Source of the DNA: Paramacrobiotus metropolitanus
Taxonomy: Eukaryota > Tardigrada > Eutardigrada > Parachela > Macrobiotidae
Direction of reading: 5' to 3'
DNA length: 64,000 nt
Assembly (NCBI RefSeq): GCF_019649055.1
Contig: NW_026570320.1
Location: 124,001-188,000 of the forward strand
Positions 1 through 56,957 of this stretch are shown piece by piece. The position numbers were made by a program, and so were the translations under genes. Each line of letters starts with the position of its first letter. Positions within the stretch are counted from its first letter, which is position 1. The notes under the pieces were generated by a model. It ran no database searches. It saw only the letters and a list, made by a program, of their open reading frames with translations, and had not been told where the DNA came from.

Positions 1-1943
1 GCGATTATGCTGGTTTCTACTTGTGTCGCTATTTATATACTAGTACCTGTAGGTATGGATCCATGTCGAATCATATTAGGTACTTTCAGTTCTGACTGCC
101 TTATGATAATGCAGCCCAACGGCCTGTGCGTCATGCTCCTATGTGTCATTCAGAGATAACGCAAGCGTTGTGCATTGGTTTCTTGCAACAGTCAATGCCC
201 ACTTTAAGGCAACACTGCCTAACGGTAAATCTAGTCTCGACTAGATTTTCCGTTGGGCATCGTTGACTTATCCATGCATGTGCGTGTTACATGTTACGGT
301 ACACGTTGTACACGGTGAGTGCAATGCAACTGCACTGCATTGCACGTTAATGCTGTTAATACTGTAAGTCTGTACTCTGTACTGTGTTATCGACGCTGTG
401 TAATAACAAATTTAGATTTAACATAATTACGAACGCAGAGGGATGCATATGCTACCGAGATGGCATTCATTACTAATTAGGTGGTAATTTCGCGCAATAA
501 TTATTAATTAATTAAACAATATTAAAGCTAACTAGATAGTCCTTCAAGACGGCAGTAATTAGCTTACCGATGTAATGGAGATAATTGGATATACAGTAAC
601 ATTTTGCGCTCTTTTTTTGCGTGTGCGATGTGAAGATGCATAAAGTACATGCACTCGGTTGTTTATCGACAGGTTGACTTTTAGTGTAAGTTCGGTCATT
701 CACTTATCGCGGCAGTGACAGTTGGTATGTTATCGCATTATTGGGTAGTTTTTTACGCGTCATTTGTTGTTACTCACAGCAGCTTGGCTTTCTGTAAGGC
801 TGACTTGCGATAAGCCAACAGAAATGAATTTGTATATTGTAACTTGTAAGTTTGTAACACAGGATAGGGAAAAACTGAGCTTGTAACTGAGGACAGACAG
901 AACGTTTACTGACAATAGAGAGAAATTTACTGTAAACTCAAGAGAGACAGAAATGCTGTAACTCAGGATGGGCAGAGATGCAGAGGCAGAGGTGGAGCAT
1001 CTATGTGAACAGTGAAAGAACGCACTGAATGTCATCGTCAGTTGATCCAAAGTTTCAAGCACTAGTTTTTCGTTTACCTTTCCATAAAACTTCCTAACCA
1101 ACATCTCAGAAGATAGAAAGAAAAATTTGACGCTTTTGATCTCTGATAAGTGTTTTTTTGTGGAACCAAGAAAGTTATGCTTGTTTTGGTTTCTCGTAGA
1201 CATAGCATAGGGTGCAAGCAACGCCTCCATCGGACGGACCTATGCTAAGTCTACGAAACCAAACAAAACTTTCTTGGTTCTCCATAAAACCTACTTTCAA
1301 AATATCAAAAAATTCTAAAATTTTATTCTCTATTCTGAAACATTAACTGGGAAGGTTCGTTAAAGTGACAACGAAAAACTGATGCTGCAAGTTTTGGAGA
1401 TAGTGGCAGTCGGAATCAGGTACCCAAAGTCGAGTAATACACGTATGCGCGTACGCGAGGTGGTTGCACTTGCCGCAGACTATTTCGCTAAAATAGCCGT
1501 CCAGCTTGCACTCAGGCAATCTTCCCAGTAAACAACTCCACAACAGAAGTTTTTTGCAGTTATTATGTAATAAAACCCGTCCTTCGGAACAGTCCCCACG
1601 GGGGACGCCCCGCTAGGGTTTCACAGTTGCCTGCACATTTACTTCCCGAGTGAGCAGAACGAGAAACCGTGGTGACCAAGGTTTTAACGCCGCGTGCCGG
1701 ATAAAATCTATTTTTTGGTTGCTTATCATCAGAAGGCGCAAAAGGTTCTTTAGCAGCGGCAATTTGGAAATATATTGTTGTTTTTGCGGTTCCAGTTAGT
1801 TTCGGCCACATTGACAGGCTCTCTTGCACATAGATCCTCGAAAGTCACTGGCAATAGTAGCCGCATTTGATTTGGCATCATTTTGAAATCCATCGTTGAC
1901 TTTTTCGGTGATATCTCTGGTGACTGTGCAACCTTTTCTCAAA
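1..1943. other. Gene-free upstream stretch
   Basis: No reading frame here shows recognisable protein character or a convincing exon chain. It holds a hairpin at 221-254, a fold-back repeat at 1161-1284 (listed separately) and generally AT-rich sequence. The frames of 60-150 codons on the minus strand between about 500 and 1990 are low-complexity or overlap the fold-back. The 5' UTR and promoter of the glycogenin gene probably lie in the last few hundred bases, but I see no clear core promoter motif. Confidence 0.5.
1161..1284. repeat. Fold-back (inverted) repeat, MITE-like
   Basis: The left arm at 1161-1211 (starts TGGAACCAAGAAAG) is an imperfect reverse complement of the right arm at 1239-1284 (ends CTTTCTTGGTTCTCCA). 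The spacer is about 27 bases. Arms of about 46-50 bases with a few mismatches and indels could form a long hairpin. No coding potential is seen. Similar but unrelated-sequence fold-backs lie at 8609-8752 and 42514-43093. Confidence 0.75.
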
Positions 1944-4516
1944 ATGAATTCAGGTAAGTTTGTTCTTGCCGCTTTGTAAATTGATTTCGGCACGGAAAGA
2001 CGCCAACAGGAACAGCCGAGCGCTTGATCCCGCGTTGGTAACGTGGTGGTGCGTTTGCCTCTGTTCCCTGTCGCATGTATTACGGGGCGGTAGTGGGTCG
2101 TTCATTGACACAGGGATTCAGTCATTGATCTGCTGTTGTTATGATTCCAGTTCCGGTTAGGGAAAAATCCAGAATTCAATGATTTTTTTGCAGGGCAAGC
2201 ATTTGTGACTTTGGCTACTAACGACTCGTACGGATTGGGCGCGCTTGTTCTTGGTCATTCTTTGCGCCGTACTGGGACGACTCGAAAATTGGCCATCCTC
2301 ATTACTCCAGACGTGTCGAACCATATGCGGTAAAATTTTAGAATTATCATTTTTTATAAACGACTATTATTCTAAATTGCCTTTGTCGTTTACGTGCATT
2401 GAACTTCGCGATAACATATACGTAAGCAATATACGGATTACGGACCATTAACGGTATGTAGTAACTAGCTGCTTCACTTTCTTGGGTAATTTCCTGTGGT
2501 TTAGTCTGTAGAGTCATAGACCATAGTTAATTTTAGTATTCCTAAAGGTTACTGACAAAGTTCGACGTCATCGACGTACTTAACTGAAGTTAGCTCTGGT
2601 GAATTTATGCTAGCCAGTATTAAAATTATCAGGATATCAGGGATGTCATTAGCCGCAATATTTCTTTCCAAGATTTCAAATTGTGCTGGTGAAAATTCCG
2701 GTTTTAAAATGGTGCAGTAACTGCAGTTCAATGTGGAAATAAAATTTAGTAATTACTTATATGTTGCGGCTTTTTCATGCTGCTTTGCGTAACGGATGTT
2801 TTATTATGAAGCCGATGTATTTTAAGAATTTGTACTGGTTTAATCTGCAGATTAGGCGGTGAAGAATTTCATGGTTACGGAATCTTTGTAAACCTGTCAG
2901 CGCGACTGTTTATGTGAACATAGTGTTTCGAGGTATATGTAAATGTCAGTGACATAATTTGTTGAGAATTTTGAGAATTTAATATAATTATTACTGTACC
3001 AGTGTGTCGTTTTGTCTACGTCGCTTTAATAGTTAATTTAATGGTGAATCGCATTGAAAGTAGATGGCTTCATTGTCAATATCGATCTTGTGCCGCATAC
3101 AATTCTTTTGCAGGAGTATGTTGCAGAAAGTTTATGACGTAATTCAAGAGGTCAATGTATTGGATTCAAAGGATGCAGCCAACTTGGCGCTGCTGGCTCG
3201 GCCGGAACTTGGTATCACTCTGACGAAACTCCATGCCTGGAATCTCACGCAATTTCAGGAAGCAGTATTCCTTGATGCGGACTGTTTGGTGAGCTTGAAT
3301 TAACCGACTGCTTTAATAATCGAGGGCTTCCAGAAAAGTTGAAAAGAGCAGTGGTGATTAGTATTTTTTTCATTAACAGGTGGTGCAGAATGTGGACGAT
3401 CTTTTTGACCACGAAGAATTATCCGCCGTGACCGATGTTGGCTGGCCGGATTGTTTTAATACTGGTGTTTTCGTCTTTCGTCCGAACACTAACACCTACA
3501 CTCAGCTTAATCAGTTCGCATTGGAAAAGGGATCATTTGACGGTAAATTATGTTCTTGCATAAGTAAAAACCCGCTTCCATGTGGTAGTGTTTTTGCGTA
3601 TCGATTTTGTTTGAAAATGTTGTTTCCAACAGGTGGGGATCAGGGTTTATTGAATCAATTTTTCCCGGACTGGAAACGACTATCTTATGTTTACAACGTG
3701 GCGGCCACGGCGATTGACTCGCATTCACCGGCATTTAGACAGTATGTTAAACAATTTTGGCATATTATATAATGTGTATTCGAGACTTACAGCTGATGAT
3801 AAGCTTTTTGACAGATATGGTGCAAATGTGAAGATTGTCCACTTTCTTGGAAGTACGAAACCATGGCATAGCACAAGCGCAGCAAGCGTGTATTTCTCAC
3901 CTGCTTTGGGAAATTTCTTGTCGCTGTGGTGGCAAACGTTCAATACGAGCGTCCGTGGTGGTCTGGAATTTGATTGGGTAAGTTTTAATGCAAGTGTTCG
4001 GAGCAGACGGACTGTCCAGATTCTGAAGCCGGGATTTATCATAACGGTGATATATGTTTTGTTTTCTGCAGTCCCCTCAGCTGTGTGTCACATCGGTGTG
4101 GCTTCGGTTTATCCCGTTGCATCTCACTGTAAGGCATTCTTTTTTTCCGTCTGGTGTTGTAATTATCCAATTTATCTATCCACAATTCTTTGGAATCTAA
4201 CGGAAGTCTGTTGATAATATTTTAGTTTGAAACAGATGCTTGAACAAACAGATGCTTGAACATTATCTCCAAGTTACAACAATCGTTTCTTAATTTCGCG
4301 ATAATGCAGTAACTTTTTTTAGTATTTGAGCACTGCAGGTGTGTTGTTCACGTAAAATTAATTTCGTTTCTAACAATCATTGCCGGCTGGTTACTGTTAA
4401 TTTTGCAGGCAGATGTATGCGTAGCTTACAAGCAAAAAACACAATCGGATTTTTTGTTCTTGCATGATGACTTACAGGTTGTTGCATTTTACATCGCTGC
4501 TGTTGTTGCGTTGTAG
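1944..4516 (+). CDS. GYG1: Glycogenin-like glucosyltransferase (GT8), priming tyrosine replaced
   Basis: Glycogenin starts glycogen by glucosylating itself from UDP-glucose. Eight exons add up to 921 nt (306 aa): 1944-1953, 2194-2329, 3114-3288, 3380-3542, 3633-3741, 3815-3977, 4072-4128 and 4409-4516. The N-terminus ([20 protein letters not shown]), the DxD metal site in VFLDADCLV, the [11 protein letters not shown] and GGDQG segments and HFLGSTKPW all match the family. In the segment [14 protein letters not shown], aligned with human NLSSISIYSYLPAF, the priming tyrosine (Tyr195 in human) is aspartate. The protein ends in a hydrophobic tail ([12 protein letters not shown]) instead of the usual glycogen-synthase-binding C-terminus, so the last two exons are less certain than the catalytic ones. 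The 784-base intron at 2330-3113 holds nothing I recognise. Confidence 0.88.
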
Positions 4517-30427: not shown

Positions 30428-31003
30428 TTAGAGCTTCTTATTCAAAACAGTTTTAGAAACATCATATCGACTCTTGCTACGATACCACAACAGATACGGG
30501 ATGCCCACAGTAGGAATTGTCATAATCAAGAACGTAATCCAGTCAGCATAGTGCGGCGCGAACTGACGATTAAATTGGTTGATTTCCCAGATTTGTCCTT
30601 CGCCCGGAGCGGACGTGTAGCCGACGACCAGTGAAGCATCCTGACTTTCTCCACTCTTGTACTGTATGCGTGCCGAAGTGAAATTGAAGCTCATGTAGTG
30701 CTTAGGCTGCAGAATGATGACGTGCGATACGTTTTGCGATGGCGGAATGCGATCCCAGTGAGCCTTGGGGAATCCGCTAACCACATCGAATAATTCCTTG
30801 TCGAAGTTCTCCTCAATCAAATGCACATCGTACGCCACTGATTCACCGATGTTGTACAAATTGTATTCCACTATCAGGTCCTTTCGCTGCACTAGATACT
30901 GATTCAAAATGCGTTTGGCAGCGAGGATACGAGCCGCACCGGGTTCTTGAGCAGAAACGACGCTTATGAGGATCACTCCAACGAGAAGCCTTAGCGAACG
31001 CAT
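30428..31003 (-). CDS. SSR2: Translocon-associated protein subunit beta (signal sequence receptor 2)
   Basis: TRAP-beta is an ER membrane subunit that binds the Sec61 translocon. The coding exon from the ATG at 31003 gives 191 aa (human 183). It has a signal peptide (LRLLVGVILISVVSAQ), the lumenal beta-sandwich (DLIVEYNLYNIGESVAYDV, VSHVIILQPKHYMSFNFTSA with an N-glycosylation site) and a C-terminal membrane helix (WITFLIMTIPTVGIPYLLWY) with a short basic cytosolic tail. An AG acceptor (TACAG) lies about 7 bases upstream of the chosen ATG, suggesting a 5' UTR intron, so the in-frame extension upstream is probably not translated. Confidence 0.93.
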   Translation of the reverse strand: MRSLRLLVGVILISVVSAQEPGAARILAAKRILNQYLVQRKDLIVEYNLYNIGESVAYDVHLIEENFDKELFDVVSGFPKAHWDRIPPSQNVSHVIILQPKHYMSFNFTSARIQYKSGESQDASLVVGYTSAPGEGQIWEINQFNRQFAPHYADWITFLIMTIPTVGIPYLLWYRSKSRYDVSKTVLNKKL

Positions 31004-31742
31004 TTTCTTCCTGTACCAAAAAGAAAGCATCTTGTTAAAGAGAAACTTACAGGACAATTAGAATGCTTACCTCGAATAAACTCCGCAAAAAATCAAAAAT
31101 AAGTGCTTGCTCAAGATGCTTGGAAATCTCCAAATGAAATAAATTTTAATAGATTTGGAAGCGGCGACATCTAAACAAATGGGCGGAGCAAGCATAACTT
31201 CCACGTCCTCTCCAACTCACGGAGTTTGTACGAGCACCGGACAAGCAGCGTGTAGTCGCACACGCACTCTGTTGGTCCTGCCCCGTCAAACTGCCTACCG
31301 CCTACTTGAGGCGATTTCTAACAATTTTGGCTTCCGGAAGTAAAAGTTTTCGAAATCATAAGTGCAGTAGCACGTTTGGAAAATTTAAACAGACGATGAA
31401 ATTTAGGGATTCGATTTAGATCTAGAATTTGAAAGGCCAAAGGATTATTAAAGATGTGATTGTGGACTTTTCCGTTTATGACTCCCCGAAATCACGAAGC
31501 CGACTTTTGGCGTTCCTGTCACTTCCTAGCAGTCAGCTTAGTCGTCTCATCTGCCAGTCGTCTGGTTCGCTCTTGTCTTCTATAGGCTTCTGTAAGGTAA
31601 GACCGTAAGAGTGAGACAGGGATGCATTTGCATTAAAATTTCGAGACCGTAAAGCGATATGCGAGTATTACTAGGACAGTAGTAAAAAGTACCGTGACTA
31701 AATTGAAATATTTTAATATTATTATTAGCATCCACTGCCAGA
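31004..31742. other. Divergent promoter region between SSR2 and BRF1
   Basis: The SSR2 (minus) and BRF1 (plus) starts face away from each other over about 740 bases. The region must hold both promoters and 5' UTR exons. The frame at 31155-31343 shows no motif. Confidence 0.45.
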
Positions 31743-43414: not shown

Positions 43415-44112
43415 TCAGTCTTTTAATTCCACAAGCTCGAAAGGCCGCACCGTATTTGCGTCCACTAAAACCTTTCCCTCAACAATCACAGCATCCGGGC
43501 CGCCTCGAATTTCAAATCTCCTACAAGACAAAGTCATTAGGTATTTCATTTGTTATGCGGCTTACAAAAAAAATTACACAGAATTAGTATACTGAAGTCG
43601 ATAAATACTCTAAATACTGTATCTTACGGTTACCTCATTTACCTGTGGCCAGATATCAACCATCCATGCGAAATTATGCAGCCTTTTGTTGCCCACTTCT
43701 TTACTTGTTCAATAATACCACTTGCAGCATAAGCGCCCGACACGACCATCAAGGAGGAACCAATGGTGTACACTTCCGCTCCCGCTGCCACAGCTGTCGC
43801 GATCCATGCTGGCGTCTCCAGTGCGGCCAGTCCCAGGACGCCCAAAGCTACTCCTCCCGCTGCAAGTGCTCCTGCCACTAACGTTAGTCCTCCCAAGGCG
43901 GCTGCGGTAATCGGTAGCACATTATCCCAGTCTGTATATCCGTTCTCGCCATTCCATAACCGAGCCCGGATGGATAAATGGACCATGCCAGTTTTACGAT
44001 GAAATGTTCCCTCCGAAGGTACAAAGTTGTCGTAATACAACGGAGAGATCTGCCATAAAGATATCACCAAAGGAACCTTGGTCTTGTTTGTTATGGATAT
44101 TTCGCCACCCAT
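43415..44112 (-). CDS. Unknown Gly/Ala-rich membrane or pore-like protein
   Basis: Two exons give 576 nt (191 aa): 44112-43643 and 43520-43415, joined in phase. The N-terminal part looks like a beta-rich domain (ISITNKTKVPLVISLWQISP, LYYDNFVPSEGTFHRKTG, VHLSIRARLWNGENGYTDWD). The middle is very hydrophobic and rich in Gly/Ala (VLPITAAALGGLTLVAGALA, then VALGVLGLAALETPAWIA and YTIGSSLMVVSGAYAASGI), enough for two or three membrane segments. The C-terminus is HGWLISGHRRFEIRGG and a short beta-like tail. There is no signal peptide. I cannot name the family. Proteins of this layout seem to me sporadic across eukaryotes, which is impression, not evidence. The 161-codon plus-strand frame at 43102-43587 is antisense to its second exon. 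Confidence 0.65.
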
Positions 44113-45406
44113 ACTGGCACAATCGCTCTGTACATGAGTTGTTACGGAACTCCGTTGTCAGTATAAAAAGTTGTAATCAGAAGTTACCAGTACTGTATAG
44201 TAGTTCGAGAATTATATGAGTACTTCTAGTGATCGCCAAGATCCAGAACATTTTTGCAGCTTCACCCATGCATCACAAATATGCGCGAACGACAAACAGT
44301 TTATAGTAAGTATACTGAGATTTTAGCTGTCATGACGGCCTCCATAACTCATCAGGCACACACACGATACGGATAACTGACGGTGACTATTACTGTACGA
44401 GTAATCGAGTAACTACTCCTACTGAAAATATATATTGAATTTTCGTAATTTCGAAAGTGGTTTCTACACCGGAAAGCCGTAAGTTGAAAAGATTCATAAC
44501 AACTGTAATAGATAAATATTTGTAAGTAAACCTTGCATAGATAAACATGAAACTGAAGCATGAAACATTTAAAAATTCTAATTTAAATTGTATCCTTACC
44601 GGCAGATTAATAAGGATACCGGCAGATTAATAATTATGTGGTTTATCCTATACTGCTTACCCCTGGTCAGTGCTTCCTATTGGAACATTTAAGGCAAATG
44701 TGGAAACGCAGCATCAGCTCTGGGAATGGCACTTGCTTCGGTCAATTTGGATAAGTTAGTGTTCTTTGTAATCCGGCCGCCTGTTTTCGGCTGCTTGTTA
44801 ATGCTATTAATGTGCTGTTCGCTATTTAAGGTTTGTTTATTTCGCATTATAGGGCAGCAGTCACTCATTAAAAATAAATGTTAACGACAATGCAGATAAA
44901 ATTATACGATTGAGAGTGCGATATTTCGTTATTTATGCCAGGATAGTATATCTGATCTTCCAGGATCCATCATCAAAATTACATATTTATATTTTGGCAT
45001 ACAGTCACACATCAGCAATACGCAATACTCGTACGTATATTTATATCTATATAGCGAGATAATGACCGTGCGCACGAAATACCGGATCACCGGATCCTGA
45101 GTGAAGTAAAATTCTATATAATATTTTGTTTTGAGTGTTAGGTTTAATGCCTAGACCAGATATTACTCAAGATTTCTTATGGTTTCAGTCACTTTCCGAT
45201 ATTTAAAACTCAAAAAATATTCAAAACAAAGTAGATCGAGAGACTTTAGTCCCAATTAAATGGATGTAAAAATAAATACATATATAGAATCAAAAAGCAA
45301 GTGAGTACATACAGCTATGAAACCCGGCACATAACACTGTATAAGTCCTAAACAACTGTCAGTGAAATGCCACACGTCAACATCGAGTAAAATGTCGATG
45401 GCGATA
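44113..45406. other. Intergenic, no gene seen
   Basis: AT-rich with no supported exon. A direct repeat of about 17 bases (ACCGGCAGATTAATAA) occurs twice in tandem at about 44599-44634. Confidence 0.5.
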
Positions 45407-48400
45407 TTACAGTTCAGATTTGGAAAGCACTCGTGCTTGTGAAACATGCTTGTCTAAAAATCTGTGAATTTCTTTGACGGACCAGTCCTTTCCGGAATAA
45501 CGGATCGGGGCGGTTTTGTTTTTCTCCGAGGCAAAATACAGTGTTGGGTATGTTCGTGGTCGGTAGCTGGCCGGCGGATCGTTCAAACTGGTATCCATGG
45601 CGAAGAATTCCGTGTTGGGATATTCACTTTTTTGAGCAATCTTCATCAAATTTTGCTCCAAGGTCTCGCAAATGGTGCACAGTGGATGACAGAAGCTAAT
45701 GACCACATCCTTGGGATTGCTAAGAACAAACTCTTTGAATGTGGCACCTTGTACTGCTTTAACGGCGTCGGTGTTCTCTTCGGCTGTCAGTGGCTTCTCA
45801 GACCGGCGGAATGGGACAAGCTTGCCTACAATTATAGGTAAAGACTTACCAAAAACCAGTCTTTTATAGGAACTATTACGTTAGTAGACAGTTTATTGCT
45901 ATATTCGGGTTATACGACTACATTACTTTTACGGAACGTATCCATATCTAAATGCTGTAGTTTATTGTGTGTACGCTTATCCTCAATTACAATTATTTTG
46001 GGAACCCATCTGCCACACAGTTTGTTGTCCTTTGCAAGTATCCTACTGTTCTTACCGGCTAGGTAGTCCTCGGCAAACTTCTTTATTTCGGCAGATGTGA
46101 TCCTGTCTTCTGTATGGAATGGATACATTTCTCCATCTGCACCAATAATTCCCAGGCGGAGCTCTTTTTCTTGGTCCAGATCGGTAAAACCAAATCGACT
46201 AAGTTCATCTTTGAATTCCTTGACATCCGACATAACAAAGGTCAACTTCTGAATTGGGTATTCGATAGCCACCTGCGCAATCCTGTGACGCACGAATAGC
46301 GTTTCTGTGTACAAAAATCAAGCTGGTTTAAAATCAGAAGCTTTTTCCAGAGTTGCAACGATATTTTATGTTTTTTTCTTTATAGATCGCGGCGGTAACT
46401 TCCCCCCATAAACATTTTCTCGCGATGTGAGTGAGGATGTACGAGCCACTCAAATGTATAACTAAACAGCTGCAGATTTTACCTTTTTCTGCAGACGTTG
46501 TGCTCCAGTCCACTTTAGTGTAGCTGATTAGTAGCGGCCGGCGATTGTACTGGAAGCCGTCTTTGTTCTTTTTTGTTCTGTGGCCAACCAATGGAACAGC
46601 TTTAAAGGCAATGAACGTAAGGAGTTCTTCCAGTGTTTTCAGATTCTGCAATGTTGCACTGGTGGTTAATTTCTCGACAGGATTGTCAAATCAGTGCATG
46701 TTTAATGTCAAATGGGATTTCGTACATTCTCTGCTATAGACACGTCCTTGGCTTTAATGAGTTCAGGATCCGAATCACGCTTAGGCAACATGACGCCAAT
46801 TCGCCACTGCTCATCCTCCACCTTATCTTTCCATCCAGGTGACGACATGAACTGACGAATCACGACGAAGTACAGTTCTCCTCGTAGCATGTTTGCTAAT
46901 ATAAAAACACAAACAATTTATCTAGTGCTGCAATTCTATACTATACTTAATACCCAAGTAAAGATTAGAAAGAACTTAATGATTCTCTAATAGTGACTTT
47001 ACCTTTACGTGCATAAGTACTTTCTCATTATGATGCCATTATATACAATTCAATTTACACGCGAGATGTCTACCCAGTACTTACCAACTTCAGTGAACAA
47101 TTGGAATTGTGGCAATCTCTCGTTTTCAAAATACCCGATAACTGTCGGCTTGTCTTGATGTTTGGACAAGAAACTTTCAACTTCTTGTGGAGTAAGACCT
47201 CGGACAAATGGCGGCTGCATCTGGCTCTGCAGATATTTGACCATCCCTGAAGCCGAGCCAAAACTAAAATTACTACCGGTACCCATATCTATATACAGTA
47301 CAGCGTATGTGCTTGCAGTGACACTCTGCAGGTGGATTTACCTTTTGCAACTTTTGGACCCTTGTATTCATACGCTCTGCCACGTCGGAAAATTTTAATC
47401 ACAGGTGGCACACCAAATTCGTTCCGCAGATCCTTTACATCGGCAACGTTGACCTTAAAAAACGTGTCCGTGCGATTTAAAGCAGCTGCGGCGTTTTCGA
47501 GCTCCATCAATACGCGGTAACTGGACAGTCTCCTACAAAAATGAGCGGCAAGGATTTAATTTTGTGAATACTGTAGTTACTTTCAGCATAATTCCACTGA
47601 ATGTGGAACTGTAATTATAAAGCTCAAGAAGCTCGTTTACTGGGCAAACCTACGTTGGAGAATACAACAGCAGCAAGGAGAAATCTTTTTTGGCAATTTT
47701 TTCGATGTCCTTTGGCAAGATTTCGGTTATGTGTTCCGGGAGATTTTGCGGTGGATACCAAATGGCTTCCTGGCGCTTGATGAGCTCTTTCACGATCGCG
47801 TCAGCTTTCCATGAGTGTTCAAAGTTGTAGGCCCGATTTTTATAGAAAAACATAAACTGCGGCTCATCGCCACGAATGTCCATCTTTTTGACAATTTCCG
47901 GGTGGGCAGAAACATCCATGCGACCGAGACAAATAGACGGATGTTCCTGCTGCAGCTGTTTGGCGGCTTTTTCGAATTGCAGCAAAACTTCCTCAAATTT
48001 TGGATCCCTAAAATTTTTAATTAATGAAGACTTGATATAAGCCACTTAAGCAACAGTGCAGTAGCGTTACAGACACCGCTCAACATTACCATGGAACTCC
48101 AAATAGAGCTAGCAGTATTTCGTGAGCTCCGACCATGTAGTAAAAGTTGTCTTTTGTCAAAAGAATCACGTCATGCTCGACTTGAACGTCGGTATCACCG
48201 AAATGTTTAGTGATAATTTCCGCATGGACAGGATTATGAAGATGGTCCGGATGATGATGCAGCACTTGGGCATATCCTGTGTAAAGAGCATTGAGAGTAC
48301 AATATAATTACCAGATATCCCCGCAGTTTGTCCCTTCCGGTAATTACGATTCGTAAGCCGGCCGGGAGACTTAAAACTTTGTCATCATTTTACTGGGGCA

Positions 48401-48723
48401 ATTTTCTCTCTACTTACTTGTTAGGAATACGTACGTTTAACATACATACAATAATATTGTATGCCAAAATAAGAAAAAAACAATTATTGTATACATATTT
48501 TTCGGGTGTATTTGTGCACCCGTAGAGTAGGTCATTAAAACTTTTACAACATCTGGTCAGTTACATATAAAAAAACAGCTAGATTATTTTAGTACGAACT
48601 GGAACTTTCGTTTTTCCAGATTTAGTAGCAAACATCTGCAGAAGGTTTTCTTACATGGCTTAAAAGATTATACAACTTACCGCACACTATAACGGCAAAA
48701 AAGACGAAAATCCTTAATATCAT
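45407..48723 (-). CDS. PDIA4-like protein disulfide isomerase paralogue A (one CxxC of three)
   Basis: An ER-lumenal protein with the ERp72 layout: three thioredoxin-fold catalytic-type domains (a0, a, a') and two b-type domains. Nine exons give 1980 nt (659 aa): 48723-48681 (signal, ILRIFVFFAVIVC), 48276-48090, 48007-47654, 47532-47342, 47288-47085, 46895-46726, 46645-46483, 46304-46056 and 45825-45407. A His-rich stretch (VLHHHPDHLHNPVHA) precedes domain a0. The expected CxxC sites read DPKF (after FGVPW) in a0 and RLSS (after YSPT) in a; only a' keeps CTIC (in FCHPLCTICETLEQ). The C-terminus is KSEL, a KDEL-type retrieval signal. It lies downstream of paralogues B and C in the same orientation. 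Confidence 0.9.
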
Positions 48724-50142
48724 GATGTTGGATAAATAATAGGATACCAAGAAGATCTAAGGTAAAATTTAGATCCGAGCTTAGCTGAAAAATCGTTCAA
48801 CGAAGGAATTTGAAATTGCTCTTAGAATCTAGCAAATACGTCTACGTGCAATGTTGCCGGCAACTGTTGTTACAGAAAGGCAAATGAACTTTGCGATAAT
48901 TTAGCCGACCATGACAGACAAGATTAAGTTGGATGAATTCGAATCCACCAAAGGTAAGTAAGAATTCCCTGAGGGTTAATTTAACGACTTGTGTGTGTTA
49001 AAATCCTTGGATTATAACCAGGATAGATCACAAGCATTCTACGTTAAAAAGCCTTAGCAATTTGGTAATTATTAACCTTTACACCAAAGTAAAGAAGCTT
49101 CGTTATAGAATATCACTGATGTGCAAGCTTATGAAAAGAAGTTCTCTCGATGTAAAAGACTTCCTATGATGTGGAATCACTTGATTTGTGTGGTGGTTCA
49201 TCATAAGGCTTCCGGCAAAATTGAAAGGTCGATCACCGAAGAGAACGTTTTAAAAATGATCACTTGGCCTTAAGCGGTTCACAGATATACAAAACATAAA
49301 GTGAAACTAAATTCTATTATTCTCCAGTTTTTACTTACATTGCAAGGTTAATTGATTGTAATGCAATGCAGACTGAATGAATTCTCGCTTTGAAAATGTA
49401 AGAGTAAATCCAAAAGGTAATGTTTTCACCGTTAACTGTGCGCTGCTATAACATACAGATACTACAGTAGAAGTATTAGAACTTGAGAAAATATCAAAAA
49501 TTCTGAACAGTCGGTGTTCGTCGAATTCACTGTGCACGCGGCACAATAATAACATTTTAGTGTGTAGTTTTGTCTTACGTTATGTAATTTGACGGAATCA
49601 GAATTTAAATAGACGTAATGACACAGTATATAAAAACTTGCAGACATGTGGTTTTTGAATGCAGCGCTGCATTCAAAAACCACACGTCTGCAGACGTGTG
49701 GAGTCACTTACACGCTGAGTATTTCGTCCTTTCTAAATTTACGGTACTTTTATAACCGTGATCAGGTATGCAGTTAAATGCCGGGCATAGCCATAGGTAC
49801 ATAATACGGTACTGCGGTAAAATCAAACTGATTTCGTGACAGCTACAAACACATTGAATCACGAGTAGCTGAGAACAGAAAAAAAGAATACAATTTGCTC
49901 CTACCAGTTTCTAACGTTTTTATTTTGAGCGGCACTATGTAGTTGCAGTCATTCGAAAGACAGATTCGTAATACATCGATCGCTCATGAAATGTATGCAA
50001 GAAAAATATATAAAGAACATTCGCATAGACGGCGATAACAAAATTAAGGGCCACGATAGAGTCAGCCCTCATTATTCGCTCAAGTCCATGTCCACCATAT
50101 AATATAACATTTTACATTTTTGGTTTCGAGTATTTTGAAATT
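48724..50142. other. Spacer between PDI paralogues A and B
   Basis: Contains a possible isolated plus-strand exon (ATG at 48911, MTDKIKLDEFESTK, then GTAAGT) with no partner found, and the nested palindrome at 49640-49700. Other frames lack motifs. Confidence 0.4.
49640..49700. repeat. Near-perfect nested palindromes
   Basis: Arms 49640-49665 (starts GCAGACATGTGGTTTTTGAA) and 49666-49691 are reverse complements over 26 bases with one mismatch and no loop (core GCAGCGCTGC). Overlapping its right end, 49681-49700 (CACACGTCTGCAGACGTGTG) is a second, perfect 20-base palindrome. Such sequences can extrude cruciforms. No protein-coding role is seen. Confidence 0.9.
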
Positions 50143-53100
50143 TTACAATTCGGTTTTTGGTTTGGATTTGTGCAGCTTTCCCAGTTCTTCGAACAGGAAA
50201 TGCCTCACCATGTGTTCTTCAAATAATTCCCCAGGATAATTAATCATATTGTCCTTGTTATCCTTTGGAATAAGAGCTATACTAGGATATGTCGACAAAG
50301 AAATGTCCGAAGGCAGATCATTGTTCGAGGCATCAATCTGCGCGAAGATGACATCCCGCCGCCGAAATTCCGGATCTTTAGCCAACGCCCGTAATGATTG
50401 CTCGGCTGTCCACCAGTTTCTGGACAACGGATGGTAAAAGAGCACTAAGGCGTGTGAATCGCTATGAAGGATTTTCGAGTTAAACGTATCGGAGGATAAT
50501 TCTAGCACATTCGGGTCATCTTGCTGCTTTGACTTGCTTCTGAAAAACGGCTTGACTTCTCCTGCAATTGATGAAACCGTGTCATACACGTTTAAATAAA
50601 ATATATTTACGAATATTTTAAAGAAACGTAGGTTGCCCTTGTACTGGTTACCGGCTTTGTATTGATTCACAAATTCGCTGATCATTTTCGAGCTCATGTG
50701 CGCAGTGTCCCATCGTGGATAATATTCACCGTCTTTGCCAAGGATTCCCACATGAATGTCGTATTTAGGATCGAGATTAAAACCGAAACGTTCCATTTCT
50801 TGAGTAAAATTATCAGAGTTGCAGATGGCGAATAAAGTATCCTTATGGTCTTTTGCGGCGTGGGCAACCTTATCACGGTAATACTCGGTATCTGCGTAAT
50901 ATGGAAACTAATTATTTTTGATAGCGCATCTGTAACAATTCCGGGCTGCAAAATTACGTTTAAAAAAAACAGTAAGCGGGGCATAAATCCTTGTAATACA
51001 TGTAACCCAAGTAATTAAATACAGTCTGAATCCAGCGAAATTGTATTTGTCCAATATTTACGCTCTGCGGCGCACAGAATCTACTGCAGCTACTGTAGGT
51101 TGCACAATTTGCAGTATACGGTAATTATACATACCTTTTTTTCCGGTTTTACTCCAGTCAATTTTTGCATAAGCAACCACAAGCGGACGCAGAGAATACA
51201 GACTTTTAGCATTTTCAAATGTTCTTTCTCCCGCTAACGGAGTTGTCTTCCAGCGAACGAAATCTTTTATCATTTCGTAACTTGCGTCTTCCTGAATGAA
51301 AAAAATTAAATTTTCTAGTCGAAAGGGAAAAGGCGTCAGAAAAGAAAGAATTTCAACATATACATTATGACATAACTAATTGTAAGTTAACCCACTTGAT
51401 GCAGAACCGCTTTTTTCTCGTCGTCGGGTGTGCGCCAACGCTTCGGTAAAATAACCGCCAGTGTCCAGCCCGGAGCTTGCACCGGTTCGTCCGTACTGCC
51501 TTTTTGGCTCACCATAGGTGTTGGCATCAAAATAAAATTATGCTCATCCCGGTAGTCTTGAGCTGAAACATTAAAATACCGTTTTTATCGAACGAGAATA
51601 AATCAGCAACAAAATTATTTCTTATATTATTCTCTAGTTGTAGCATACCGACATCTACAAAATCTTGAAATTTCGAAAGCGTTTTGGATGCAAAAAATCC
51701 AACAACCGTCGCACGTTCACCATGTTCCTTGAGAAATTTCTCCAGATCGTCCGGATGCGACATTTCAGTGTAGGGTTCCCGTGCATGCCAGGTTAAATAT
51801 TGAGTAATCCCTAAAAAGCAAAAAGTTTAATTAACTGTGCAGTTATCACACGAACCGGCAACAAAAACTGAAACTCATTCAAAAGAAGTTAATTGTTCCT
51901 ACGTACCTTCAGGGTTGACTTTTGGTCCACGATAATCGAATACTTTCCCTTTCCTGAACATTTTCAAAGCTGGAAGTTTGGTAATACCAAATCGTTGCAA
52001 TGTGTCTGGCTTATCCGTGGCATCGAATTTGTAATACCCAAATCTTTTGTCTTTTTTTATTTTATGAATGCCCAGCTCGAAACTGTACAGCAAACGTTCA
52101 CCTGCCGAAGATCTGAAAATGAATGAATTGTAATTAACACCTTATTGTACAATGTATAAATCTAATTTCTTCCTAAATCTGAGTGAATTTTGTAGTAAAC
52201 ATTGCCGTCTGATGCAGCAAGGAAAGGTACCCAAACAAATAATTTTCTAATTTCTTGGAACATCGCTGCTGGCATATTTCTACTACTTGGGCGTCATAAT
52301 CCATACTTACCCCGGCAAATAGAATATGACAAGAGAGAATTCCTTATGATTCGTGACCTTGTCGAAGTCCGGTTTGGAAAGGTTTTTGATAGGTATTTCG
52401 CCGTATGGTAACTGCGGCACTTCAAAATTCTTTTGTGAAAGCTTCTTAACCATAGCCGCTAAGGCTTTTGCATTGGGAAACTCATCCACATTGTAAGCGG
52501 CACCGCGGAAATACAGGATAAACTGCAGTTCGGGTGGCTGTACTTCCACAGCTCGAGCGGCGACCGGTTCCGCAGCCATATCGAGTTTGGCCAACATTGC
52601 GTCCTCGGTATTTGCAAGGACAAGTTTTGCCACGGTTTCAAAATTCTTGATTTTTGCCTGATATTTCGGATCCCTGTAAGTTTACGGTGGTAAGAGGTTA
52701 TAATTACCATCGGTAATTTACCGGCAATTCAAAATTAATTTGTCCAACATAATCACTAGTAAATAAGAAATGCGTAAATTAATTAATATTTACTGTTTAC
52801 ACTTTTACAGTACTTCACTTGATTACTTTTCTACTATGCATAATATTTTACAACTGACATAATTATTTAACATTGATGAGAAAGGTATAGTGAAACCCGG
52901 CTTAATATTTTAGGTTTATTGAGAAGCTGAGATCTATGCTCAATTTGTGCTCTTACCATGGAACATAGCACATAATCAGTAGTATATCGTTCCTCGAGAC
53001 CTCTTTTGCCAGAGTGTCGCCGGTTATAAGAGGCACGCCATTGTCCATCGAGGCCACGGCAACATTTGGACTCATAAGATCCAACTTGGTATAATCAACG

Positions 53101-53286
53101 TTATCAAAACGAGCGTTTTGGCACCCTGTAGAAATTTGCGGGTATGTAAATGAACAGAAGAAATTCTATAACAGTGAGATTCAAAATGTGATGAAATTCG
53201 ATAACTGAGGATTTGGTTTACTTACCATGTTTTTCTGCCAGTGTCAGTATTGTAAAACAAATTGACACAACTTGTTTTAATCCCAT
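50143..53286 (-). CDS. PDIA4-like protein disulfide isomerase paralogue B (no CxxC)
   Basis: Same domain plan and exon plan as paralogue A. Nine exons give 1944 nt (647 aa): 53286-53226, 53125-52957, 52673-52311, 52112-51907, 51810-51649, 51562-51396, 51291-51135, 50891-50652 and 50561-50143. Signal peptide MGLKQVVSICFTILTLAE. All three active-site positions are lost: DPKY (after CYVPW) in a0, SAGE (after FYLPGS) in a, and SRNW (in FYHPLSRNWWTAEQ) in a'. The fold markers remain, for example LKMFRKGKVFDYRGPK, TTPLAGERT and YYRDKVAHAA. The C-terminus is KTEL, a plausible retrieval signal. Thiol exchange through CxxC is not possible; a chaperone or scaffolding role is an inference. Confidence 0.9.
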
Positions 53287-53367
53287 TTCGTAGCAATTTA
53301 AAATTTTTATCTATGAATTTGAGATAGATATTGTACAGTAATTAAAGCGTACAAACAGTCTGAAAAG

Positions 53368-53592
53368 TCACCATACGGACGTCAACGCCAAACAGCTTTC
53401 ACTTTCGGATTTCCGGTCATAGACATCTTTCACGGCGTAAACCGCCCAGAGCCATGCCGGTACTAACAGTTCAAGATCAACGCTCGCCAACCTGTATGTT
53501 TTGCTCCAACTCCTTAACGACAATTTTACTAGGCCTTGCGGAAATCTTTTGACATCCCATGAGAAAGCAGTGCGAATGAAATTCGTCAATTT
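53368..53592 (-). CDS. Possible small protein exon between PDI paralogues B and C
   Basis: An exon-like open stretch follows a CTCAG acceptor at 53593. It encodes KLTNFIRTAFSWDVKRFPQG, a basic helix, a hydrophobic helix (LELLVPAWLWAVYAVKDVY), then a Ser/Glu-rich end and a stop at 53368. The plan (basic N-part, single membrane helix) is a little like small respiratory-complex subunits such as UQCRQ, but similarity is too weak to name it. No upstream exon was identified. Confidence 0.35.
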   Translation of the reverse strand, partial: KLTNFIRTAFSWDVKRFPQGLVKLSLRSWSKTYRLASVDLELLVPAWLWAVYAVKDVYDRKSESESCLALTSVW

Positions 53593-54054
53593 CTGAGCAT
53601 TATAAAAGTCTGACTGGTACTACAAGCACTGTATTGTAGTAGAAGTGTACTACTACTTGCAGTCTGCACTATTATTTCTGCATAAAGACTGACCATGTAT
53701 TAAATTATTATTTTTCGACAGCCTCTGTAGCATTATTTTGATTAAACTGTACTTACATAAATACTCGTACTGTAATTACTTATGGGCATTACCGCAAGAG
53801 CGTGCGTACTTATGGTAACGGAAGCACATTGATTAAACTTATTGCGATGGTGAGCATTCTTGTGAAGTTGTGCAGGTTCTGTTAATTTTAATCACAAAAT
53901 GTTGGTCACAACAAACAGATTTAAAAAGAAGATCTGAAACAAATATATTGGTAAAATCCAATCATGCAAAGCAGAGGATCCCAAAAAATGTTTTGCATGG
54001 CTTTTCCTCGAATACTCACACAAAGAAACAAAATTATAACACAACTTTAGCCAT

Positions 54055-56957
54055 CTAGAGTTCTGTTCGAACTTTGTGCTTATGAGCATTATTTTCAATA
54101 AATTCTTTCATTTTTTCTTTGGTGAAGATTCTTGTAGGATAGGGAACGGGGGGAAGGCTTTTATCATAGGAGACGAAATACATCATTGGATACGTGGTAT
54201 TCGTCGTAAAGCGAGCCGGTGCATCGTTCCCATAGGTGTCCATGGTGGCAAACACCACATGCGGATACTCCTTCTCTTCAGCAATATCGTGGAATGTGTT
54301 CATGGCTTTCTTGCAGGCTGGACAACTGGGACGGTGCATCAGGAGCAGAACTTCCTTGTCGTGCCGCAGTACCAGTTTACGGAACGTGGCACCGACAATC
54401 ACTTTGACCGCGTAGTCATCGCTGTCATCATGTGTGGGTGGAGACTGGGTGCGGTGGAAGGGTTTCAGTTTATCTAAAATGTCAAAATAACTACTGTATA
54501 TCCTCAAAAGAACCTATAACTTTAATTAAAATCCCAATATTTTTATAAAGCTTAATTGCCGTAATTGTTGGCACATTTAGTTCCACTCTGCTTGTCCTTA
54601 CTTTTTTGATAATTGCTGGCAAAATCGGTTAAGAGTTTCAAATTCATGATGTCCACCACCGGTCCAGCATAGTATTCACCATTCTTTCCAATTAACCCAA
54701 GCAGCACATCCTCTTTGTGCTGCTCCAGATTCATTCGCACAAGTTCATGCTTAAATTCATTTCTGTCAGAAATGCAGAATGTAAATTCGGGAAAGCCATG
54801 CACCATCTGAGAGATTTTGTCACGGTGGTACTGCGTATCTGAAAACACAATAATTCGCAGCCTTTTACCGGTATTGACCCAGGCATACATAACATGTACA
54901 GTACCAGTAATCGTAAGAATAAAGTACTCGTACATGGTGCATTTAACGTGTGATAGACCTGCTCACAAATGTACGATAGTACAACAGTTTTGAAATAAAA
55001 CAATTAGAATTCAAAATTTGATATTTCGTACGCAAGACAGGATAATGTCACAGTGACGGTCACACACCAATGGAAACCACATCGATACATCGCGCTTACC
55101 ATGTTCCCGTGCTTTACTCCAGTCCACGTTCATGTAACCAATAAGGAGCGGGCGATCGTTATACAGAGTGTCCTTGTTGCGCATCGTACGCTGTCCGACC
55201 AATGGTCGGCTTTTCTTCTTAATGAAATCCACAAGGTGTTCAAAGTATGGTTTCTGAAACGGAAGAGCGTTGTAGTCAAAACTTTTATGAAAGAAATCGT
55301 TCACAACACGATAAACCTCGTTGAAAATGTATTTTTCTTGTCGGCAGGAGAAACGTGGCGAAGTGGAGGGTATACGCTGATCTGCCAGTCTCCGGTCGGC
55401 GCTTTTGATTTGACGAACGCAAAATTCAGCTGATCGCGCAAATAATTAGCTGTTCGAAAAAGAAATCTTTAACTTTGAGAATCTTTAGTGTGAAATCACT
55501 CTATAAAATTAGGATTAGTCAGCAAAACCGGCCACATTACTGCACGGCAATAATGTTACCGCATATTCGGCTAAAAAAATTATTATGGGCTTTTGTGGCA
55601 TATAGAAAACGTCTTCCTTATTTACCAACGTCCAAAAAGACTTCCATATTTTCATGCTTGTCGGTATCAAAGACACCGAGGACCGCGCCTTTATTGGGAT
55701 AACTACGGATCCATCCTTCCGCTTCTTCGATGGATTTTAATTGCTTATACGGCGGTTGCATTTGGCGATTGATGTATTGCAATATGGCTAATATAACAAC
55801 GAAGCAAAATCAATACCGCAGAAGCAAATGTTGCGTAAAAATATTTCGTCTTATATACTACACCTACCGGGATACAGCTTTTCGCGGGAATTGAAACCGA
55901 ACACTTTGCCTTTCCGGAACACTTTCAGCGTGGGAACATCAGTGATTTCATATTCTGACGTCAAACTGGGAGCATCATCCAAATTCGTCTTGAAAAATCG
56001 GATTTTATCGGTAACTTTGTCAGTTAGATTGACTACAGCGGTTTCGTATTCCAGCAAAAGACGCACACAAGATGGACAGCTGCAACCAACATACAGTGTA
56101 CCGGTACTTGGGTAAATTCATCGACTACTTGATTATTGTTTAAAAGGCTTAATGAATATACGAGATATGTCGGTCGGTATTTCAATATAACACTTTAACT
56201 TATAGTAGCATGCCAAACAAAAGGATGCTGGATAAAGACAACCTTTAAAAAATTAAAAAGATGTTCCCGAAATTTTTCACTTTGTTGAAAATGTACTTAC
56301 TTTGCTCTATAGAAAGCCACAACAGCAAAATCCAGACCTTTAATCGTCTGCTGGAATTCGTGTTGGGTCAGCTCGGGCACAAGTTCCGGATGCGGCCGTG
56401 GTGGAAACCAAATGTGGCCAGCGTGCAAACGAAGACTCTCCAACAGAGCCGAATAGCTTTTAAAGTCCTCATAATTGTACGGTTTTCCTTGATGGAAGAA
56501 CAAGAACTGCGGCTCATCGCCACGGATATCTAATTGTTCGGCGATTTCCGGATGAAGCGACACATCCAATTTGCCCATCAACACTGACGGAAGTTCATCG
56601 TTGACTTTTTTCGTAACCTTTTCGTATTCCGGCAGCATGCTTCGGTATTGCGCGTTCCTAAATTATTAACACTTTTTGACTTTTTGTAAAGAATGTGCGA
56701 TATAAACACGACTGAAAGACCCTAAAAATTAGAGTTATGTGGTGGACGCTTGATTTTTCTCACCATGGCACATGGAACAGAACCAAACCGGTTTCGTGTC
56801 CTTGTATCAAATGGTGGAAGTTATCTTCTGTCATTACGTAAACCTCATTGTCCAACTTGATGTCCATCTTGGGATAGCTATCCTGACCCACATTATCCGA
56901 TTTGCTATGAACTATAAAAAAATAAAATAAAACACCACAAATACAAGGAAGCACCAT
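54055..56957 (-). CDS. PDIA4-like protein disulfide isomerase paralogue C (two CxxC of three)
   Basis: Third member of the tandem array. Eight exons give 1875 nt (624 aa): 56957-56764, 56657-56301, 56079-55868, 55787-55626, 55449-55310, 55253-55100, 54838-54602 and 54473-54055. The first exon merges the signal (LPCICGVLFYFFIVHS) and the N-terminal part that are two exons in A and B. Domain a0 has NAQY in place of CGHC (after FHVPW); domain a has CPSC; domain a' has CPAC (HRPSCPACKKAM). The end is RTEL, a weaker KDEL-like tetrapeptide. The donor after exon 5 is GTGTTG, which is unusual but is the only site preserving the phase-0 junction seen in A and B. It is the least eroded of the three copies. 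Confidence 0.9.

Follow-up and report, generated by a model that had tools for sequence, protein, structure and literature searches.

What does a multidomain thiol oxidoreductase retain once most of its active sites are gone? The question is raised by three neighbouring genes, here called A, B and C, in a stretch of 64,000 nucleotides from the tardigrade Paramacrobiotus metropolitanus (contig NW_026570320.1, positions 124,001 to 188,000 of the forward strand; this whole stretch is the window, and positions are counted from its first letter unless another contig is named). The genes encode proteins like PDIA4 (ERp72), a member of the protein disulfide isomerase (PDI) family generally regarded as an oxidoreductase with several active sites. 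All three show the five-domain order of PDIA4 and lack most of the expected CxxC active sites, and we favour, with moderate confidence, the reading that they form a PDIA4-derived, largely non-catalytic family of client-binding or scaffold proteins resident in the endoplasmic reticulum (ER), in three tandem copies that are the only PDIA4-type genes found. A first-pass annotation of the window had proposed a lineage-specific family of ER chaperones or scaffolds derived from an oxidoreductase and possibly acting as hetero-partners of graded redox ability; the results below support the PDIA4-type origin and the loss of the a0 site, add evidence of selection on gene C, and do not support the graded redox ability.

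Gene structure and domain architecture

The genes lie on the minus strand in the tandem order C, B, A, with gaps between the coding parts of 768 bp (C-B) and 1,419 bp (B-A), and each splices at GT-AG sites to a single uninterrupted frame of 8-9 exons and 639-654 amino acids (aa). Gene A (48723-45407) encodes 654 aa in nine exons (48723-48681, 48276-48090, 48007-47654, 47532-47342, 47246-47085, 46895-46726, 46672-46483, 46304-46056 and 45825-45407), and gene B (53286-50143), which is without any CxxC, 647 aa in nine exons (53286-53226, 53125-52957, 52673-52311, 52112-51907, 51810-51649, 51562-51396, 51291-51135, 50891-50652 and 50561-50143). Gene C (57002-54055) has eight exons (57002-56764, 56657-56301, 56079-55868, 55787-55626, 55449-55310, 55253-55100, 54838-54602 and 54473-54055) and encodes 639 aa from its first Met, or 624 aa if translation begins at 56957; that Met had been taken as the start before and is the second in frame, the frame also being open from 57002. 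A weak point of these models is that one short intron near the b-b' boundary in each of A (53 bp) and C (56 bp) was placed by homology and frame; the corresponding intron of gene B measures 104 bp. Because the proteins are only 29-36% identical (A-B 30%, A-C 36%, B-C 29%), the long open frames and shared intron positions are not due to chance, and splicing, domains and tails together confirm the earlier observation of three intact tandem PDIA4-like genes.

The Pfam families Thioredoxin and Thioredoxin_6 match all three proteins, and in sequence searches of the Protein Data Bank (PDB) the PDIA4 pieces 3idv (a0-a), 3ec3 (b-b') and 2dj3 (a') matched in the order a0-a-b-b'-a', the a domain of gene A being covered via PDIA3 matches (query 189-639). 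In the b-b' region, which has no active site, bit scores were nearer PDIA4 (3ec3) than PDIA3 (2h8l) in 3/3 genes, at 71.5 vs 33.7 for C (b-b' query), 71.5 vs 41.7 for B and 52.8 vs 35.5 for A. This order and these scores support the ERp72-like architecture suggested at first reading. The a' domain of B, the one domain modelled (from a three-sequence alignment), is predicted to adopt a thioredoxin fold (mean predicted local distance difference test score 83), and the best PDB match of the model is 2dj3, the third thioredoxin domain of PDIA4. All five thioredoxin-type domains are still recognisable.

The N-termini are hydrophobic and signal peptide-like, as judged by eye from the spliced models, and the C-termini are ER-retrieval-like: KSEL in A (45410-45421), KTEL in B (50146-50157), the same tetrapeptide that ends PDIA3 of this genome, and the variant RTEL in C (54058-54069). 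The proteins would enter the ER by the signal peptide and be returned to it by these tails. The human PDIA4 pattern consists of five domains, of which three are a-type, and a K-E-E-L tail; its three active sites are all CGHC (PMC3500226), whereas A, B and C have zero to two CxxC sites, none of which reads CGHC. The domain order, signal peptide and K-x-E-L type tail are common to PDIA4/ERp72 of human, rat and Caenorhabditis elegans (C14B9.2) and to the three Paramacrobiotus proteins, which differ in being three tandem copies and in the acidic N-terminal stretch, not found in any of them by eye (gene A is His-rich there).

Active sites

CxxC is lost from six of the nine sites and kept in three (A a', C a and C a'), and CGHC occurs in 0/9. 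Gene A reads DPKF in a0 (47995-48006), RLSS in a (47520-47531) and CTIC in a' (45668-45679); gene B reads DPKY (52661-52672), SSAG (52100-52111) and SRNW (50413-50424, within the fold model), and gene C NAQY (56645-56656), CPSC (56067-56078) and CPAC (54313-54324). The losses amount to 3/3 sites in B, 2/3 in A and 1/3 in C, and the only cysteines of B are at residues 10 (in the signal peptide), 22, 73 and 452. On the spliced models the first-pass annotation was therefore right about three surviving sites, about the absence of CxxC from every a0 domain and about B having no redox site, and also about eight of the nine individual readings, the exception being the a site of B, which it had given as SAGE. 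In all three genes the a0 and a introns stop a single base short of the site (48007, 47532, 52673, 52112, 56657 and 56079), so that the first complete codon of the exon is in each case the first of the site, and since the intron position is the same in A, B and C, the register in B is fixed as SSAG. PDIA3 (ERp57) of the same genome (contig C8, ~2831 of locus L002) has its splice acceptor in the same place, one base before the a-domain CGHC; it shares the KTEL tail with B and, unlike A, B and C, has CGHC in both a-type domains. Its first exon was not located; PDIA3 is not known to have an a0 domain.

Alternative exons that restore CxxC would have spoken against the first-pass annotation by its own account; none was seen in the six a0 and a introns. 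There, in-frame AG acceptors were translated and the three forward frames scanned, the scan being confined to these introns and to acceptor choice. Use of any of these acceptors would leave the lost CxxC missing, and the only intronic C-x-x-C, CLAC in the a intron of C, lies behind stops.

The surviving sites were compared with a yardstick of five reference domains (two of PDIA4 from 3idv, two of the genome's PDIA1 and one of its PDIA3), all of which read E-F-Y-A-P-W-C-G-H-C-K. Against this, the buried Glu is replaced in 9/9 domains of A, B and C, the following Lys in 8/9 and the preceding Trp in 6/9, Trp being kept in the three a0 domains; by alignment this Glu would correspond to Glu47, the buried catalytic residue of human PDI. 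At CTIC in A the changes are Glu to Ser, Trp to Leu and Lys to Glu, CPSC in C has lost all three residues, and CPAC has lost Glu and Trp and kept the following Lys. Since Glu and Trp are gone from all three, the remaining CxxC are not ordinary PDI sites, and their inner dipeptides (TI, PS and PA) are unusual as well. Lys-Glu pairs beside PDI sites have been described as enabling proton transfer, and human PDI with both flanking Lys replaced retained 21-36% of wild-type activity at pH 7.4 (PMC5835755). All three surviving sites may be weak; a grading of redox ability that counts CxxC alone is not supported as it was stated. Gene B would be redox-dead, and A, with one CxxC, and C, with two, at most slow or able to form only mixed disulfides.

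The same sites could be read as redox specialisation, with C (CPSC, CPAC) and A (CTIC) still true thiol-disulfide enzymes whose redox potential has changed to suit particular substrates, and with B as a non-catalytic partner. Both cysteines are present at 3/9 sites, the site-facing Pro-containing loops (VPT, TYP) persist in those domains by eye, and the a' domain of C retains its flanking Lys; we nevertheless consider this unlikely, given that all three surviving sites lack both the buried Glu and the Trp before CxxC and that a and a' are no longer the best-conserved domains.

Conservation across domains

Identity was calculated per domain with bounds set by hand, the a domain being counted from the site onward since exon 1 is missing from the PDIA3 model; within each set the three pairs have sequences in common and so are not independent. 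Among catalytic PDIs (human PDIA3, tardigrade PDIA3 and tardigrade PDIA1; three pairs) identity was 0.57-0.72 in a, 0.51-0.66 in a' and 0.21-0.46 in b'. Among A, B and C it was highest in b' in 3/3 pairs (A-B 0.38, A-C 0.43, B-C 0.36), with 0.29-0.31 in a, 0.27-0.37 in a' and 0.24-0.32 in b, and a separate three-row alignment that included a0 (0.27-0.39) again placed b' on top in each pair (0.36-0.46). Conservation is thus inverted, with a and a' leading in the active PDIs and b' leading in A, B and C. The shift towards b' fits a loss of catalysis with binding kept, and client or partner binding via b', together with b, would be the activity retained. The excess of b' over the two a-type domains is a straightforward numerical marker by which other pseudo-PDIs could be sought.

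Binding need not be general. Each copy might be fixed as a structural subunit in a specific secreted or ER enzyme complex, like PDIA1 in collagen prolyl 4-hydroxylase and in MTP, and not act as a general chaperone; three diverged copies with the architecture kept and the chemistry lost agree with this, and the PDB matches listed for the a' domain of B include PDI within both complexes (7zsc and 6i7s). A general client binder fits the same data, however, and we hold fixed subunits to be quite improbable.

Duplication history and selection

In a tree of seven rows over the b-b' region, A, B and C formed one clade (support 99/99), with A and C together inside it (67/65). A grouping of A and C with PDIA4 to the exclusion of B was rejected by the approximately unbiased (AU) test (p-AU 0.0003). 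Since the three copies form one clade and none has the a0 cysteines, loss of the a0 site before the duplications is the simplest history, and probably the true one, as the first-pass annotation had held. The similar replacements DPKF, DPKY and NAQY fit such a loss, although four positions prove little. In this sequence of events the a0 active site would have been lost first, duplication into three tandem copies would have followed, and thiol oxidoreductases would have become ER-lumenal client-binding or scaffold proteins.

Synonymous sites among A, B and C are saturated (proportion of synonymous differences, pS, 0.72-0.77), which makes the copies old and meant that the proposed ratio of nonsynonymous to synonymous change (dN/dS) among them, although attempted, gave no usable value. 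For this reason gene C was compared with a segmental copy: a fourth copy, on contig C80, comprises exons 1-2 with a premature TAG and a changed first Met, and sits, together with part of the neighbouring gene, in a duplicated stretch of ~4 kb that is 82-94% identical by piece. The duplication pairs positions 2-4509 of locus L003 on C80 with window positions 60504-56306 and includes a local inversion of ~260 bp; by eye the neighbouring gene is nucleotide-sugar-transporter-like. Identity stops within ~5 bp of the end of exon 2, where the segment adjoins sequence that looks guanylate-cyclase-like by eye.

Over 183 codons from the second Met, 20 synonymous and 7 nonsynonymous changes separate C from the C80 copy, a dN/dS of 0.086 (bootstrap 0.03-0.19); from the first Met (198 codons) the counts are 21 and 12 and the ratio 0.144 (0.06-0.30). 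Neutral evolution of the copy after duplication should have put ~41 nonsynonymous changes on its branch. The 7 seen over the 183 codons suggest that this region, which is mostly the cysteine-free a0 domain, was under constraint in both lines over most of the time since then. Purifying selection on the dead a0 domain of C, around NAQY, supports the favoured reading.

The opposite possibility is a decaying cluster, under relaxed selection after the ancestral function was lost, with frames still open by chance or because the loss is recent. It would account for site losses that vary among the copies, for the truncated fourth copy with its premature stop and no first Met, and for a weak codon bias (GC content at third positions, GC3, 0.43-0.48 in A, B and C vs 0.57 in PDIA1 and 0.66 in the partial PDIA3 model). 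The copies are old by their synonymous saturation, yet three frames with their splice sites and tails are intact, and dN/dS is 0.086 in exons 1-2 of C, which together make decay very improbable.

Search for a canonical PDIA4

The first-pass annotation had suggested looking for a canonical CGHC PDIA4 elsewhere in the genome. The draft assembly (169.8 Mb, 533 contigs) was searched with the Pfam Thioredoxin family (35 matches at E <=0.001) and with four protein queries including A, B and C, the PDIA4 a0-a-b-b' query giving 29 matches at E <=0.01 and 44 candidates being scored; loci were inspected on contigs C34, C8, C80, C106, C39 and C6, and single-match loci on other contigs were not. Apart from A, B and C, no locus in the assembly had three neighbouring thioredoxin matches, and no canonical PDIA4 was found, within the limits of assembly gaps and of the search. 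By eye, the loci inspected were labelled PDIA1, PDIA1-like, PDIA3 and P5-like (two genes); the other matches were smaller single ones, A, B and C themselves and the truncated copy of C. Elsewhere, C. elegans C14B9.2 is a probable PDIA4 orthologue, and only eight PDIs are counted in Drosophila (PMC3415087).

Several observations weigh against a PDIA4-derived, largely non-catalytic family. The best whole-protein PDB match is PDIA3 for 3/3 genes, PDIA4 being present in the PDB list only as pieces, and a PDIA4 query matches the genome's PDIA3 and PDIA1 (best E 3e-44) much more strongly than the three genes (3e-6), a ranking to be expected if CGHC-type domains dominate the score, and also if A, B and C are no more than remote relatives. 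In the b-b' tree, the part of the proposed phylogeny that concerned placement beside PDIA4 instead of PDIA3 was neither supported nor rejected (p-AU 0.39 for PDIA4), while the single clade stood. Three CxxC pairs remain, two of them among the three sites of C; b' is conserved in relative and not in absolute terms, since PDIA3 orthologues share more of it (0.46) than A, B and C do (0.36-0.43); and the usable dN/dS covers exons 1-2 of C only, A and B being saturated. The weaker codon bias would fit low or restricted expression, and no perfect ER stress response element (ERSE) or unfolded protein response element (UPRE) was found in the 769-1,500 bp upstream of A, B and C, which hold single short core matches only.

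Comparison with known inactive PDIs

Judged by sequence, A, B and C would belong with the inactive PDIs, since the PDI fold is kept (as modelled for the a' domain of B) and catalytic cysteines are lost (3/3 sites in B, 2/3 in A, 1/3 in C). PDILT is of PDIA1-type ancestry with the order a-b-b'-a', from which A, B and C depart by an extra a0 domain and a PDIA4-type b-b'. It has the sites SKQS and SKKC and an ER tail, performs no disulfide oxidation or reduction and is reported to be limited to testis (PMC3500226). With A, B and C it shares the PDI architecture, the non-classical sites and the ER tail, but it has two a-type domains instead of five domains with PDIA4-type b-b', and the tardigrade proteins come in three copies. 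ERp29 is also non-catalytic. ERp27, which is without CxxC, binds PDIA3, and the two proteins measure 273 aa (ERp27) and 261 aa (ERp29) (PMC3500226). Both are ER proteins of the PDI family like A, B and C, but they are short and not five-domain PDIA4 copies. The PDIs of cone snails (csPDIs) retain their catalytic sites and speed toxin folding. They exemplify lineage-specific specialisation in the PDI family (PMC6275033), in which A, B and C resemble them, whereas sites are lost in A, B and C. Inactive PDI-family proteins (PDILT, ERp27) are already known, and what is unusual is the five-domain PDIA4 type, in three old copies and with no canonical one found.

Three old, diverged copies with the chemistry mostly gone amount to a natural experiment on which functions of PDIA4 need catalysis and which need only the binding frame. 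The animal is a desiccation-tolerant tardigrade, in which ER protein protection is an ongoing question. A bolder form of our reading is that a whole PDI class has been converted: the lineage would lack a catalytic ERp72 and have a three-member set of ER holdases or scaffolds on the five-domain frame, with selection moved from the catalytic a domains to b' and with a fixed non-cysteine motif at the a0 site, W-[DN]-x-x-[FY], that has taken on a new role in binding. This might serve to protect secretory proteins while the animal dries, or help to form cuticle or eggshell. We offer it tentatively, and as a whole it is rather unlikely. Among the matches listed in searches on tardigrade PDI, PDIA4 and ERp72 and on inactive or pseudo-PDIs there was no report on A, B or C. 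Desiccation tolerance is the theme of PMC8277472, the Milnesium proteome (PMC2835947) names only PDI-2 and PDI-3 in the passages covered, and the main text of PMC11191345 does not contain the word 'disulfide'.

Other genes in the window and in the genome

An open reading frame of 172 aa (43639-44157, minus strand) adjoins the array, and a frame resembling SSR2, the beta subunit of the ER translocon-associated protein, by eye from its translation, lies ~14 kb away (30428-31057, minus strand). Elsewhere in the genome, the gene part of the published TPS-TPP-2 forward primer of Paramacrobiotus sp. TYO (PMC8277472), called P. metropolitanus in later work (PMC11191345), has a single exact match, against none for its reversed control; the reverse primer also matches exactly, 3.65 kb downstream, and the frames between the two look by eye like trehalose-phosphate synthase. 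Two genes that by eye are P5/PDIA6-like are found on contigs C106 (locus L004) and C6 (L006). In the C106 gene the sites read CSHC and CQYC, and the two thioredoxin domains are separated by a long, charged region of low complexity. The PDIA1-like gene, so labelled by eye, on C39 (L005, 1777-3683) has CGHC in its first thioredoxin domain and CGAC in its last, another altered site.

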